A DNA stretch of 64,000 nucleotides from Thiospirochaeta perfilievii. GTDB lineage: Bacteria; Spirochaetota; Spirochaetia; DSM-2461. The notes beneath the pieces were generated by a model. That model was not told where the DNA came from. It searched no databases and was given only the letters and a program-made list of their open reading frames with translations. Both the position numbers and the translations under genes were made by a program. The number at the start of each line of letters is the position of its first letter. The stretch's first letter is position 1. The DNA lies in NCBI RefSeq assembly GCF_008329945.1, contig NZ_CP035807.1, positions 2,418,001 to 2,482,000 on the forward strand, read 5' to 3'. This document shows, piece by piece, positions 14,582-19,789 of this stretch.

Positions 14582-15382
14582 TTATTTTAATTTAAAGATA
14601 AAATTCTTTATGGTTTTAACTTCTTTATTTTGCTTATGGAATTTCCATCTTTTTTTTATTGTTGTTATACATTGATTGTCCAATATTTTATGTCCACTGG
14701 ACTTTAATATAGTTACACTCTTAATTGAACCATCCATCATTATTGATATTTCGACCTTAACAATCCCTTCTATTTTCCACTTAATGGCAGATTTGGGGTA
14801 GGTTGGCGCTACAAGATTTAACCTTCTGGATATCTCTTTAAAATCTATAGTTTCACCATTACGTTGGGTTTCCTTAGTAGGTTGGGTTTCCTTAGTAGGT
14901 TGGATTTCCTTAGTAGGTTGGATTTCCTTAGCAGGTTGGATTTCCTTAGCAGGTTGGATTTCCTTAGTAGATTGGGTTTCCTTAGTAGGTTGGATTTCCT
15001 TAGTAGGTTGGATTTCCTTAGCAGGCTGGATTCCCTTAGTAGGCTGGACTTTTCCAGTAGTTTTGGTCTTCTTTGAAATTAGTGTGGGAATTGTAGTTTT
15101 ACTTTCCTTTGTTGTTTGAGTTTCTTTAGCAGTTTGAGTTGTTTTTACAGGTCTTTTTTTGTTGGAAACTATTTGGGGGGGATTGGCCGAATCTATTAAA
15201 AAAAACAATTTTGTAACCTGAGGAACATCTATCTTTTTGACGTCATGTTTTTTTATATACAAATCTAGAAGAAAAATAGAAGAGAACATTAGTACCAAGG
15301 AGATAAAAATTGAACTAATCCATCTATTATCTAATATAAATGAGCTGCTGAACACCATCAGAAGCTTGAATAGTCTCTTCAT
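14582..15382 (-). CDS. tonB: TonB energy-transducing protein with repetitive linker
   Basis: About 266 aa from the ATG at 15382. The open frame extends further upstream, but inside the preceding gene. This ATG has GGAG upstream (12 nt away); another in-frame ATG at 15358 is possible. A single membrane helix (WISSIFISLVLMFSSIFLLDL) is followed by a Lys/Glu/Gln/Pro-rich linker with about ten copies of a KE(I/T)QP(T/A) hexapeptide. The C-terminal TonB domain reads VAPTYPKSAIKWKIEGIVKV, then MMDGSIKSVTILKSSGHKIL. TonB spans the periplasm and transmits proton-motive force to outer-membrane receptors. It is the last gene of the riboswitch-headed operon and overlaps the beta-propeller gene by 56 bp. 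No exbB/exbD is present in the window. Confidence 0.88.
   Translation of the reverse strand: MKRLFKLLMVFSSSFILDNRWISSIFISLVLMFSSIFLLDLYIKKHDVKKIDVPQVTKLFFLIDSANPPQIVSNKKRPVKTTQTAKETQTTKESKTTIPTLISKKTKTTGKVQPTKGIQPAKEIQPTKEIQPTKETQSTKEIQPAKEIQPAKEIQPTKEIQPTKETQPTKETQRNGETIDFKEISRRLNLVAPTYPKSAIKWKIEGIVKVEISIMMDGSIKSVTILKSSGHKILDNQCITTIKKRWKFHKQNKEVKTIKNFIFKLK
14863..15042. repeat. 18-bp tandem repeat in tonB
   Basis: About ten copies of an 18-bp unit (plus strand GTTGGATTTCCTTAGTAG with G/A, T/C variants), in frame, encoding the hexapeptide linker of TonB. The copies differ at only one to three positions, so the tract can probably expand and contract without breaking the frame. Confidence 0.93.
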
Positions 15383-16331
15383 GATTATAGCTATCTCCAT
15401 TAAGAATATAAATCTCATCCTTAGCAAAATTTGATAGATAAATTTTATTTGTCTCAGGAATAAATAATAAGCCAGAGATAAAAATATTATCAAAAACAGT
15501 AGTAATACCTATTTTCTTATATGTCTCATAATTATAGGCACCTAGGCCTGTAGTACCATGTAGGTAGACTAGCTTTTTAGAAAAGTTAATTCCCCCATCA
15601 GCGAATATTGGAGAACCTCCGACCTCTATTGTTGATTTTAACTGGAGGGATTTTGAGTTTAGAATAATAACTACTCCATCACTAACTCCAGTACTGTTTT
15701 CTCCTGTGCATATTACATGAATTTCTTCCCTTTCTTTAAAGGGGATTATTGATTGTGGATTAAAGATTCTATTAGGAATTATATCCCTTAGGTTAACTGT
15801 TTTCTCAATGGTATCATCTAAAGTATTGATTATAGATATTGAATTAGAAGTTGTATTGCCAATATAGAGCCTGTTATTTATAAGACAACCACCCTCAGGA
15901 TTTTTTCCCACCTTAATAGCTTTAAGAATTTCTCCAGATTGCTTGTTAACCTTTATAACTTCATCTGAGATATAACAGCTAATATATAGGAAATCTGTAT
16001 TAGGTAGAGGAAACGTCATCCATGGATTTTTACCACTACCTAAATAGATCTCTTTAGTTTTGTGTAAATCTTTGTCGTCGTACAGGGAAATCGAGTTATC
16101 GCCAGAATTTACTAATATAATAGTGTCAGTTAATACTAGATGGTTTGGCCACATACCCGTTATTTGCACATTATTATAAACTCGATTCTCTGGAATATCT
16201 AGAACGCTTAATGTCTCTGCTAGTCCATTAAAAAAAACAATATTCCCTTTAATTTCAGGAATAATAATCTGTTTATCGTTATTACAAGAGAGCATTAAAA
16301 CTGTGATAATTACTGATAGAAGTTTATTCAT
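15327..16331 (-). CDS. YncE/BtuG-like beta-propeller lipoprotein
   Basis: 334 aa. A lipoprotein signal (MNKLLSVIITVLMLSC) has Cys16 as the lipidation site. The body consists of repeated propeller blades: NGLAETLSVLDIPENRVYNN, NNRLYIGNTTSNSISIINTL and NPEGGC follow the spacing of YVTN/YncE repeats, and the last blade is TNKIYLSNFAKDEIYILNGD. In Bacteroides, a beta-propeller lipoprotein of this layout (BtuG) sits on BtuB and captures cobalamin with very high affinity. Here the gene lies between a BtuB-like receptor and tonB downstream of a cobalamin-riboswitch-like leader, so the same role is inferred. Sequence similarity to BtuG itself cannot be measured here. It overlaps the receptor gene by 8 bp. 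Confidence 0.75.
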   Translation of the reverse strand: MNKLLSVIITVLMLSCNNDKQIIIPEIKGNIVFFNGLAETLSVLDIPENRVYNNVQITGMWPNHLVLTDTIILVNSGDNSISLYDDKDLHKTKEIYLGSGKNPWMTFPLPNTDFLYISCYISDEVIKVNKQSGEILKAIKVGKNPEGGCLINNRLYIGNTTSNSISIINTLDDTIEKTVNLRDIIPNRIFNPQSIIPFKEREEIHVICTGENSTGVSDGVVIILNSKSLQLKSTIEVGGSPIFADGGINFSKKLVYLHGTTGLGAYNYETYKKIGITTVFDNIFISGLLFIPETNKIYLSNFAKDEIYILNGDSYNHEETIQASDGVQQLIYIR

Positions 16332-18171
16332 TTATATTCCTTATATATTCTAGACTTATCCCAAGAGTAAATCCTGGTACAGGGTAACCACGGTAATCCG
16401 TATAGTTTTTGTTTAATAAATTTTTACCATAAATATTTAGTATTAACTCATCTGTTATTGGTATAATGGTATTTAGGTCTACAAGGGTATAACCGGCTCT
16501 ACTTTTTGTATTTGCACTAGTTATATAACTCTCTCCTGTAAAAGTGGTATCAAGGGAGATTTTAAAACTATTGTAATGATAATATATTAGAATTACATTT
16601 CCTTTATGGGATGGCCTGTTTATAAGTTTTTTATTGAATAATATACCTGGATCCCTGTTTAAAGCTGATAGGTATGTATAATTTATTCGACCTTCTAAAT
16701 ATCCGTAAATTGGTAAAAAATCAATTAGAATTGACAATTCAGTCTCTAAACCCTTAATTTGGGCTGACCCTAGGTTATTAGGCGACCAAAGACCGTTGGG
16801 CCCTGGGTTCCATTGTATTAGGTTTGAAATATCATGATAGTAGAGCGTTGTTTCAAGTTTTAAATTTCCTGTTAGAGCAGTTATAATGCCAAGGTCAAAT
16901 ATAATGGCATTCTCATTTTTTAGATTAGAGTTTCCAATTGCAAATGAGGTTTGAGGCCAAAATAGATCGTTAAAAGAGGGCAACCTATAACTATTGGCAA
17001 CACTACTTTTTAGTGTGTGTCTGTTTTGAGAATCAAAGTTGTAAGAAAAACCAAGACTCCAACTAAAAATAATATCGGAGTCTATTACCGTATCTATTCG
17101 AATTGATGGATGAATTAAAAGTTTAGAAAAAATATACTGGGGAGAAATGTAAAGGGAAATTGCCTCCCTTTTTATATTTTTATCTATAGTTGTAGAGTCT
17201 AAATAGTCAAATCTTGAACTTAGTTCAATTGTATTATTATAGGAAAAAGTTGATGATAGTGATTTATAATCATGGTTACTACTAATAGGTCCTAAAGGGG
17301 CATCTGAATCTTTATAATCCCTTATTTTATTTAGATATGTGACATCTATAAAAAAGAGGTCTATAAAGTTAAAATTAATTCCACTAATGTATTCTAAGTC
17401 CTTCATTCTAGCTGTTATTGAAGGAAACTCTATAATACCGGGAACACCTTTATCAGCAGTATAAAGGCTATTATTAAGGGTTATGTCTATATTATTGATT
17501 AAAAAGTTCAAATTAAATGAACCAAATATAGATTTTAAGTCAGAGTTTATCCTCTGTCTTGAACTCTCTCTATATAAAAAATCATAATTCCCAGGGCTAT
17601 ATATTCCATATATTCCACCATTAACATTTAAGCCTTTAAAATTCTTGTTTAAGTTTAAAGAGAGGATATTTCTTTTTTCTATGTTGTAGTCATACTTTAT
17701 TCTTATGTAGGAATTAATATTTTCATCTGTAATAATATTAACTACTCCACCAAATGCACTCTCTCCATAAACAGCAGACCCTCCACCTCGTATAACTTCA
17801 ATCTCTTTTATGCTCTCTGGGGATATAGTGGAAAGATCAACTCCTCCCCCCTGGGATGAGTTAAGCCGCTTTCCATTTAACATTATAAGAACCTGCTCTG
17901 GAGAAGAACCTCTAATTGATATAAATGATGGAGACGCATCATTACCCATTTTTGACATTGCTACACCCATTGCTGATGATATTAATTCTGATGTGGATGC
18001 CCCAGGTAATAGAGATATTTCTTCCTTGGAAATTATAGATATCTGTTTTGTATTATTATCAAATTTATTAATTTTTTCTGTTTCTCCGGTTATAATTATT
18101 GTTTCTATATCCTCTGTAGAGAAAAGGTTTAATGATAAAAATAGCAGTATTATTAATAGATATTTTTTCAC
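16324..18171 (-). CDS. BtuB-like TonB-dependent outer-membrane receptor
   Basis: 615 aa, the size of BtuB. The signal peptide is MKKYLLIILLFLSLNLFS. A TonB box (ETIIITGETEKI) lies at about residues 23-34. The plug domain has SIRGSSPEQVLIMLNGKRLN and the hallmark EVIRGGGSAVYGESAFGGVV. The remainder is a beta-barrel of alternating strands, with KNLLNKNYTDYRGYPVPGFT near the C-terminus. It imports a large ligand across the outer membrane using TonB. The riboswitch-like leader at the head of the operon and the propeller lipoprotein next door point to cobalamin or another corrinoid. The small size argues against a SusC-type receptor. It overlaps both neighbouring genes by 4-8 bp. Confidence 0.92.
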   Translation of the reverse strand: MKKYLLIILLFLSLNLFSTEDIETIIITGETEKINKFDNNTKQISIISKEEISLLPGASTSELISSAMGVAMSKMGNDASPSFISIRGSSPEQVLIMLNGKRLNSSQGGGVDLSTISPESIKEIEVIRGGGSAVYGESAFGGVVNIITDENINSYIRIKYDYNIEKRNILSLNLNKNFKGLNVNGGIYGIYSPGNYDFLYRESSRQRINSDLKSIFGSFNLNFLINNIDITLNNSLYTADKGVPGIIEFPSITARMKDLEYISGINFNFIDLFFIDVTYLNKIRDYKDSDAPLGPISSNHDYKSLSSTFSYNNTIELSSRFDYLDSTTIDKNIKREAISLYISPQYIFSKLLIHPSIRIDTVIDSDIIFSWSLGFSYNFDSQNRHTLKSSVANSYRLPSFNDLFWPQTSFAIGNSNLKNENAIIFDLGIITALTGNLKLETTLYYHDISNLIQWNPGPNGLWSPNNLGSAQIKGLETELSILIDFLPIYGYLEGRINYTYLSALNRDPGILFNKKLINRPSHKGNVILIYYHYNSFKISLDTTFTGESYITSANTKSRAGYTLVDLNTIIPITDELILNIYGKNLLNKNYTDYRGYPVPGFTLGISLEYIRNINE

Positions 18172-18971
18172 TTTTTCACTCTTATAATTGCATCAACTTC
18201 TGTCTCTGACTGGTAATAAGTCCCCCCATATGTGTACCCTCCATTAGGAAAGAGACCTGTACTAATTTTTATATATGAAATACTGCTTAATTGAACAGGA
18301 GTAAACTTACTGTCTACTGCCCATTCTAACTTAAAAGCATCCCCTCCCCCTGAACCACTATCTATAGTTAAGTCTCCTGGAGTGTCTGGTACAGTATAAA
18401 AATCTTCATCTTTTATGTTTTCTGGTTTTTTAAGTGTAGGTGTAACTTCTGTAAACCCAACTCTGCAGTTATAATCATCTGCTGACTCCCAAGCATTTAT
18501 AGAGTTCGAACCATATGTCACTTTTTTTTTGACTATTGAGTCTCTATTCTCAGGAGTAACTAATAAAAGCCATTCATCTTCAATATTCTCTTTTACTTCA
18601 ACAAATCCTGGCTCTAGGTTGGGGTTATTAGGGTCTGCTCCTACCCAAATGGTATTTCCAAATACAATAAAATCATAACTGTTGGGTATATTCTCAATTG
18701 GGGGATCAAATCTAACAACGATATACCCTCCAGGGCCTCCAAGAGTCACTATAGAACTATTATCTGCCCCGTAAATACCACCCCCCTTTGGGAACCCAAG
18801 AAGTTTGTCTAGGTTTTCCTTTATAGAAAATGTAGGGTTTTTACTATAAAACCCTGGAGCAGCATAATAGTCAGTTACTTCCACTGGGTAGTAGATAGAG
18901 GCCCTATTATAATTACCTTCATTAACAGAGCAAGATAACAGTAGTACAAAAATAATAGGGGAGAACCTCAT
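18168..18971 (-). CDS. Surface lipoprotein of the corrinoid-uptake operon
   Basis: 267 aa. The signal MRFSPIIFVLLLSC ends in a lipobox Cys. The mature protein is Gly/Pro/Asp-rich and predicted all-beta: FPKGGGIYGADNSSIVTLGG, GGYIVVRFDPPIENIP, then DFIVFGNTIWVGADP. It recalls cell-surface proteins found next to cobalamin receptors in other Gram-negative bacteria, which may bind calcium or ligand. I cannot name a family with certainty. It overlaps the receptor gene start by 4 bp (translational coupling) and follows the small lipoprotein gene by 2 bp, so it very probably works with the receptor at the cell surface. Confidence 0.7.
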   Translation of the reverse strand: MRFSPIIFVLLLSCSVNEGNYNRASIYYPVEVTDYYAAPGFYSKNPTFSIKENLDKLLGFPKGGGIYGADNSSIVTLGGPGGYIVVRFDPPIENIPNSYDFIVFGNTIWVGADPNNPNLEPGFVEVKENIEDEWLLLVTPENRDSIVKKKVTYGSNSINAWESADDYNCRVGFTEVTPTLKKPENIKDEDFYTVPDTPGDLTIDSGSGGGDAFKLEWAVDSKFTPVQLSSISYIKISTGLFPNGGYTYGGTYYQSETEVDAIIRVKK

Positions 18972-18973
18972 AA

Positions 18974-19483
18974 CTACTCTTTTGTTGTTGTAGAGTAGAA
19001 GTTAAAATAGTTAGCTTCGTCTGTCATACCAATTTTAGCCTCAGCTTCTGTCTCAAAATATGTTCCAGAATTATAACCTTCAGAGTAGGACATTGTTGTA
19101 ACTCCATTATCAGTTATTAAGGATTTCCATCTAAGAATACCGTATTTTCCAGCCCCAGCGCCACCGTTTATTGAGTCGTACTTAATTGTAATATATCCAT
19201 ACTCCCCAGTAGAGGTTTCCACTTCTGACCCATTGTAAGTGCCATTTTCAAAGGAAGTTATCTTCCCTTTGTGACTTTGAGTAAGTTGTCCATTATTGGA
19301 CCAGTATGATGAGTATTCATTGCTTGTTACTTCAATTTTTCCTCCGGATGATGGATCAAGCCATGTTCCTACAATACTTAACTCTGTTGTGGTTTGGTTA
19401 TCAAATAGGTTACAGCTATTAAGCAGTAATAGAAGGGCTATTAGAGGGGTTATAAATCCTCTTCTTAATGTTTTGTTGTTCAT
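18974..19483 (-). CDS. Small lipoprotein, first gene of the riboswitch operon
   Basis: About 169 aa from the ATG at 19483. An in-frame ATG 15 bp further upstream is rejected because the Shine-Dalgarno AAAGGAG lies between the two. The signal RGFITPLIALLLLLNSC gives a lipobox Cys. The mature part (LSIVGTWLDPSSGGKIEVTS, NGTYNGSEV, FETEAEAKIGMTD) looks like a lipocalin-type small beta-barrel. No specific function is recognised. As the first gene after the leader, it is the one whose ribosome-binding site is covered by a hairpin. A role in ligand binding at the outer membrane is inferred from context only. Confidence 0.72.
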   Translation of the reverse strand: MNNKTLRRGFITPLIALLLLLNSCNLFDNQTTTELSIVGTWLDPSSGGKIEVTSNEYSSYWSNNGQLTQSHKGKITSFENGTYNGSEVETSTGEYGYITIKYDSINGGAGAGKYGILRWKSLITDNGVTTMSYSEGYNSGTYFETEAEAKIGMTDEANYFNFYSTTTKE

Positions 19484-19488
19484 TTGTT

Positions 19489-19510
19489 CTCCTTTCATTC
19501 AAGAAAAGAG
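19489..19510 (-). promoter_or_regulatory. Shine-Dalgarno-sequestering hairpin
   Basis: On the minus strand CTCTTTTC (19510-19503) can pair over eight positions (one G-U) with GAAAGGAG (19496-19489), around a TTGAAT loop. The second arm contains the ribosome-binding site for the ATG at 19483. It is the expected kind of output structure for a translation-controlling riboswitch. Confidence 0.6.
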
Positions 19511-19735: not shown

Positions 19736-19764
19736 AAATAAAAAGCCACAGGTTTTAACCTGTG
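19736..19764 (-). terminator. Terminator of the CoA-disulfide reductase gene
   Basis: Perfect inverted repeat CACAGGTT/AACCTGTG (19747-19754 and 19757-19764). On the minus strand it is followed by GGCTTTTTATTTATAA, a good U-tract. It lies 26 bp after the reductase stop and just upstream of the riboswitch, separating the two units. Confidence 0.85.
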
Positions 19765-19789
19765 ACTTTTTTATTATATTGTACAACTT

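Follow-up and report, generated by a model that had tools for sequence, protein, structure and literature searches.

Which compound does a five-gene, minus-strand operon of Thiospirochaeta perfilievii import, and are all of its parts known from other uptake systems? The operon occupies positions 14582–19483 of the 64 000-nucleotide stretch of DNA analyzed here (the window). A preliminary description, based on the sequence alone, had read it as a set of five overlapping or nearly abutting genes for corrinoid uptake in a likely spirochaete. All five genes were found, the spirochaete host was confirmed, and the uptake reading proved right in outline, given an adenosylcobalamin (AdoCbl) riboswitch and homology to a BtuH domain. 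In order of transcription, the genes encode a 169-aa lipoprotein (LpA; 18974–19483, lipobox Cys C24), a 267-aa lipoprotein (LpB; 18168–18971, lipobox LLSC14), a 615-aa BtuB-like receptor with a GTG start (16324–18171), a 334-aa, seven-bladed BtuG-like propeller (15327–16331, lipobox C16), and a TonB with an N-terminal membrane anchor, a repeat linker, and a TonB_C domain (14582–15358), whose start codon is uncertain. The receptor gene shares a 4-bp GTGA overlap with the LpB gene, the propeller and receptor genes overlap by 8 bp, and the TonB and propeller genes by 32 bp. Clear lipoboxes ending in Cys are present in three of the products, namely LpA, LpB, and the propeller.

Because the intrinsic terminator of the upstream gene sits at 19740–19771, the five-gene unit has its own leader. 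This leader contains an AdoCbl riboswitch aptamer (RF01482; 19546–19700, minus strand), which cmscan scored at 63.4 bits (E = 2.7e-9) against a gathering score of 50 bits, so that the cobalamin-riboswitch-like leader suspected earlier passes the covariance model. The aptamer is the sole Rfam match in the 64-kb window and was recovered at the same position in a genome-wide riboswitch search. Downstream of it, a hairpin of eight base pairs between CUCUUUUC and the Shine-Dalgarno GAAAGGAG is predicted at 19489–19510 on the minus strand in both the MFE and centroid folds. This pairing, a candidate expression platform, suggests translational control of the operon; its fold z-score of −1.05 is not unusual for the composition. 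Promoter-like sites in the operon region showed no excess over shuffled sequences.

The receptor has a plug (PF07715) and a barrel (PF00593), both over their Pfam cut-offs, and a TonB-box-like ETIIITG at residues 23–29. Its best NCBIfam match is the B12 receptor model TIGR01779, at 140.3 bits against an equivalog cut-off of 599.7, and it likewise falls below the cut-off of PRK10641 (126.4 vs 836 bits). Given the low TIGR01779 score, we describe the protein as BtuB-like and not as an equivalog of Escherichia coli BtuB; among its matches in the PDB are the colicin I receptor, E. coli BtuB, and B. theta BtuB1. No other protein of the 3.7 Mb genome matched PF00593, in a search that gave matches in the E. 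coli, Caulobacter, and Bacteroides used as controls. The same genome has a complete operon for a siderophore ABC transporter of the FecBCD type (L011, 6696–10532; G000 C1 about 2534700–2538530), although the BtuB-like protein is the only TonB-dependent receptor detected there.

LpB, whose gene abuts the receptor gene so that a lipoprotein is encoded together with btuB, is a homolog of known B12-binding proteins. As a single sequence it matched 8blw_B, the BtuH part of BtuG1/BtuGH, and 7biz_A, the solved BtuH2, in phmmer (E = 6.9e-8 and 5.5e-7, respectively), and a profile of seven spirochaetal proteins brought these values to 3.4e-46 and 2.3e-45. BtuH2 binds B12 through its C-terminal domain (PMC8941943), to which LpB is homologous, and by sequence the whole of LpB is a stand-alone BtuH-type domain. 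Of the published cobamide contacts of BtuH (Gln333, Asn399, Phe401, His476, Tyr510, Trp511, Trp577, and Leu578; PMC8941943), most are not conserved in the alignment: only Asn399 is strictly kept (N106), Tyr510 is replaced by another aromatic residue (F173), Gln333 by Phe, and the stretches around His476 and Trp577 are either shorter or interrupted by an insertion. The relatives in L053 and L056 retain Gln333 and Trp577. With BtuH homology and a single strictly conserved contact, LpB likely binds cobamides in a pocket that differs from that of BtuH. The broad LpB profile takes in the divergent proteins that it was used to call; a narrower profile (A4) of seven closer LpB proteins gave E-values of 2e-5 to 4e-13 for the divergent ones, with L050 not reached. 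Longer BtuH-domain proteins of 605–687 aa occur in other spirochaete genomes (L133–L136), possibly as fusions resembling BtuGH, and the gene in L136 sits behind a cobalamin riboswitch.

The propeller is of the YncE/YVTN type by sequence and matches BtuG weakly (E = 0.02 with the single sequence, 2.6e-4 as a profile); in both kinds of search it is outscored by an archaeal S-layer propeller (1l0q_A). Its AF2 model (pLDDT 91.6) was compared with solved folds, a check that the preliminary description had proposed. Structures of BtuG1, BtuG2, and BtuG3 take most of the top Foldseek and VIA places, with Z-scores of 31–33, and solved BtuG-cobalamin structures are among those that the model matches. 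The top-ranked structure in each of the two fold searches is again 1l0q, with a Z-score overlapping those of BtuG, as would be expected if the protein were an unrelated propeller of the YncE or S-layer type that forms no BtuG lid. We regard that possibility as improbable, since BtuG structures hold most of the remaining top places, the protein is a lipoprotein, and its gene adjoins btuB in conserved clusters, as BtuG does. BtuG-like is thus the best reading, based on fold matches, the lipobox, and the place beside the receptor, with other propellers not separable by sequence; it supports the earlier comparison with the BtuB-BtuG arrangement, in which BtuG forms a lid on BtuB (PMC10404256).

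The last gene encodes a TonB, as had been proposed: its PF03544 domain scores 62.1 bits against a cut-off of 24.6 (E = 7.1e-17), TIGR01352 is over its cut-off, and a hydrophobic N-terminal segment is present. An 18-bp tandem repeat in the gene (10.3 copies by TRF; 14863–15048, minus strand) encodes a K-E-x-Q-P-x periplasmic linker, and its copy number, and hence the length of the linker, is likely variable. The exbB/exbD and BtuFCD genes are absent from the locus, as noted earlier, and were found elsewhere in the genome; the operon is therefore not self-contained, contrary to the preliminary description. Two ExbB/ExbD pairs are encoded (C1:552134 and C1:136300), both of them no less similar to TolQ/TolR than to ExbB/ExbD, and the third genes beside them gave no Pfam match to TonB_C. 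A second cobalamin riboswitch, at C1:3309760, lies directly before btuF-btuC-btuD. The genome further encodes MetH and three B12-binding radical-SAM-like proteins, while a search found no CbiC. The presence of MetH and absence of CbiC fit a B12 scavenger that appears dependent on external B12, with the limit that a single marker is no proof of auxotrophy.

Two frames encoding B12-binding domains were noted. One shares the window with the uptake operon (L062; 5240–7324, minus strand) and codes for 695 aa that combine such a domain with similarity to radical SAM proteins (PhpK or RiPP methyltransferase-like). The other (L061, 985–1869; G000 C1:848364) joins an RstR-repressor-like HTH to a CarH-like B12-binding domain, possibly as a B12-dependent, perhaps light-sensing, regulator.

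We looked for the same gene order in other spirochaetes, as had been suggested. The order riboswitch-LpA-BtuH-BtuB-BtuG-TonB is kept in four loci (L048 in G419, L053, L125, and L131), and a fifth (L052) keeps the five genes on a contig that ends before the riboswitch. Two loci (L022 in G375 and L056 in G395) have the same order plus ExbB-ExbD, with one further gene before BtuB in L056, and btuFCD lies in the same cluster in three (L047, L054, and L130). In another class, L020 (G025) has its own riboswitch and BtuH-BtuB-BtuG-TonB behind a different first gene. Because the order recurs in this way, it is not due to chance.

Of the two lipoproteins that had been put forward as possible new cobalamin-capture proteins, LpB is a BtuH homolog and so drops out, whereas LpA belongs to a family that, on sequence comparison with Pfam, NCBIfam, and PDB, is undescribed. 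LpA had no match in these three resources, and it was not found in plasmids or PADLOC; a Pfam "Read-through" hit (E = 0.038) was rejected as chance. DUF4465, the BtuJ domain, gave no Pfam match in LpA or LpB at E up to 1.

The model of LpA (pLDDT 86.6) is an all-beta barrel. In VIA-align it resembles a lipocalin-like set with Z-scores of 9.8–10.0, including the Bacteroides structures 4iab and 4i95 (Z = 10.0) and Tp0751 (9.9); the next rows are at 7.6 and below, and nitrophorins appear lower among the matches. Barrels of the lipocalin-like kind frequently have hydrophobic or tetrapyrrole compounds as ligands, which makes cobamide capture by the predicted LpA barrel a fair proposal. Foldseek returned no match with E under 0.001; streptavidin, among its weak matches (E over 0.05, rmsd about 8 Å), was discarded as evidence of biotin binding.

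The genomic setting ties LpA to cobalamin riboswitches and to BtuB more strongly than the preliminary description could show. Among 347 genomes of the class, a single-sequence search blind to context picked up LpA in 18. In 17 of these loci the gene directly follows a cobalamin riboswitch on its own strand, the contig of the remaining one (L052) ending at the gene, and the cluster includes BtuB in 15 of the 16 loci with a long enough contig. The exception (L042, 7566–9918) reads riboswitch-LpA-BtuH-TonB, with no BtuB or BtuG, and is followed by V-type ATPase-like genes. Searching genome contigs with the single LpA protein gave one locus, on the same contig as L044. A profile of the LpA sequences from the 18 loci extended the family to 61 genomes out of 393 in the phylum; among 25 further loci inspected, a cobalamin riboswitch was present in 15, and a TonB-dependent receptor adjoined LpA or lay a few genes away in 21. 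With one to three cobalamin riboswitches assumed per roughly 3 Mb genome, simple arithmetic predicts a chance riboswitch within 1.5 kb in well under 1% of loci.

The wider family also includes other arrangements. LpA-like lipoproteins are found in small clusters of lipoprotein genes (L140, L141, L142, and L144); a TonB-dependent receptor is nearby in three of these loci, and in none was a cobalamin riboswitch found within 1.5 kb. In L137 (3314–5824), the gene just upstream of a receptor gene encodes 836 aa, in which an LpA-like domain close to the N-terminus is joined to a long further part of extracellular type.

What LpA does can be read in two ways. It may found a new class of lipocalin-like, cobamide-binding surface lipoproteins that are regular front-end partners of spirochaetal TonB-dependent receptors, with a B12-specific riboswitch-led clade and sister clades for other ligands; we hold this only tentatively. 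Alternatively, it may bind no cobamide at all and serve TonB-dependent receptors in general, as a partner or as a factor in their assembly or surface display; its retention in B12 loci would then reflect that their receptor is BtuB. We consider this a serious if unproven contender. Weaker members adjoin other receptors with no cobalamin riboswitch within 1.5 kb (L138, L140, L141, and L143), which suggests that the family partners receptors in general and includes a B12 clade. A general factor would also agree with loci in which LpA is kept with BtuB and in which BtuH and BtuG were not found (L054 and L126–L130), and the strictly conserved residues of LpA (N84, G96, W41, and W119) point to no ligand by themselves. 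Against it, the members closest to that of the window are all riboswitch-led, three riboswitch loci pair LpA with a BtuH-like gene and have no adjoining BtuB (L042, L077, and L078), and ligand binding is typical of a lipocalin-like barrel. Taken together, LpA is probably a capture protein that partners a receptor, and it may bind cobamides.

For the operon as a whole, we estimate a probability of about 0.9 that it encodes a B12-repressed outer-membrane cobamide importer, of the same type as BtuB-BtuG-BtuH of Bacteroides, in a spirochaete apparently dependent on external B12. Gene content, riboswitches, homologies, and conserved gene order are established. The reading follows from riboswitches on both the uptake operon and btuF-btuC-btuD, the BtuH homology of LpB, the BtuG-like fold, the single TonB-dependent receptor, MetH without CbiC, and the recurring order. 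We counted against it a receptor far under the BtuB cut-off (140 vs 600 bits), the weak sequence match between propeller and BtuG, and the lack of most BtuH contacts in LpB. Such divergence of receptor and propeller would also suit import of another corrinoid precursor or a metal chelate (e.g. cobinamide or heme) in place of complete cobamides, the more so as TonB-dependent receptors switch ligand easily and B. theta BtuG2 binds a variety of corrinoids (PMC10404256). AdoCbl riboswitch control and the BtuH domain both indicate cobamides, however, and make such a cargo unlikely.

Under the cobamide-import reading, scarce AdoCbl would let the riboswitch permit expression, its class being assigned by the model and its direction of control taken from known AdoCbl riboswitches. 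The lipid-anchored LpB and probably LpA, presumably at the cell surface, would catch cobamides and pass them, in a putative order of hand-over, to the BtuG-like propeller, which would cap the BtuB-like receptor as its lid. TonB from the operon, driven by one or other of the two ExbB/ExbD pairs encoded elsewhere, would open the receptor, and BtuF-BtuCD from the second riboswitch-led operon would supply MetH and the B12-radical-SAM enzymes by taking the cobamide into the cytoplasm.

Lid-type, lipoprotein-assisted B12 uptake (BtuBG with BtuH), described for gut Bacteroides, is thus much wider: in several spirochaete families the same parts recur in order, frequently accompanied by a TonB of their own, and the LpA family is singled out as traveling with this type of uptake. 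In the literature searched, BtuG and spirochaetes were named together only regarding DUF4465 proteins. With a sole detected TonB-dependent receptor, the organism would offer a simple natural setting in which to study TonB-driven, lipoprotein-assisted import.

The overall route would be that of E. coli BtuB-TonB-BtuFCD, from which the spirochaete system differs in a receptor well below the BtuB equivalog cut-off; E. coli lacks homologs of btuG and btuH, the accessory genes of Bacteroides loci (PMC8941943). The btu loci of B. theta, which encode a BtuB-BtuG lid complex with BtuH (PMC10404256, PMC8941943), share the cobalamin riboswitch, a receptor beside a propeller lipoprotein, and a BtuH-domain lipoprotein in the operon. 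In contrast to them, the locus described here belongs to a spirochaete, includes TonB and the additional lipocalin-like LpA, has a BtuH domain without N-terminal Ig/PKD domains and no DUF4465 match in its five proteins, and is the one receptor locus of its genome, with btuFCD elsewhere. B. theta also has the accessory lipoproteins BtuJ (DUF4465), BtuK, and BtuL, several of which bind cobalamin (PMC12751083, PMC13398666); like LpA, they are small lipoproteins encoded in riboswitch-controlled cobamide loci, but LpA has neither the DUF4465 of BtuJ nor another Pfam match. In predicted fold LpA is alike to Bacteroides 4iab, 4i95, and 4gzv and to Treponema pallidum Tp0751 (5jk2), with an rmsd of about 3 Å over about 100 residues, and it differs from them in having no detectable sequence relation and in its context of cobamide uptake. 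LpB is of a known kind, and the new element is LpA.
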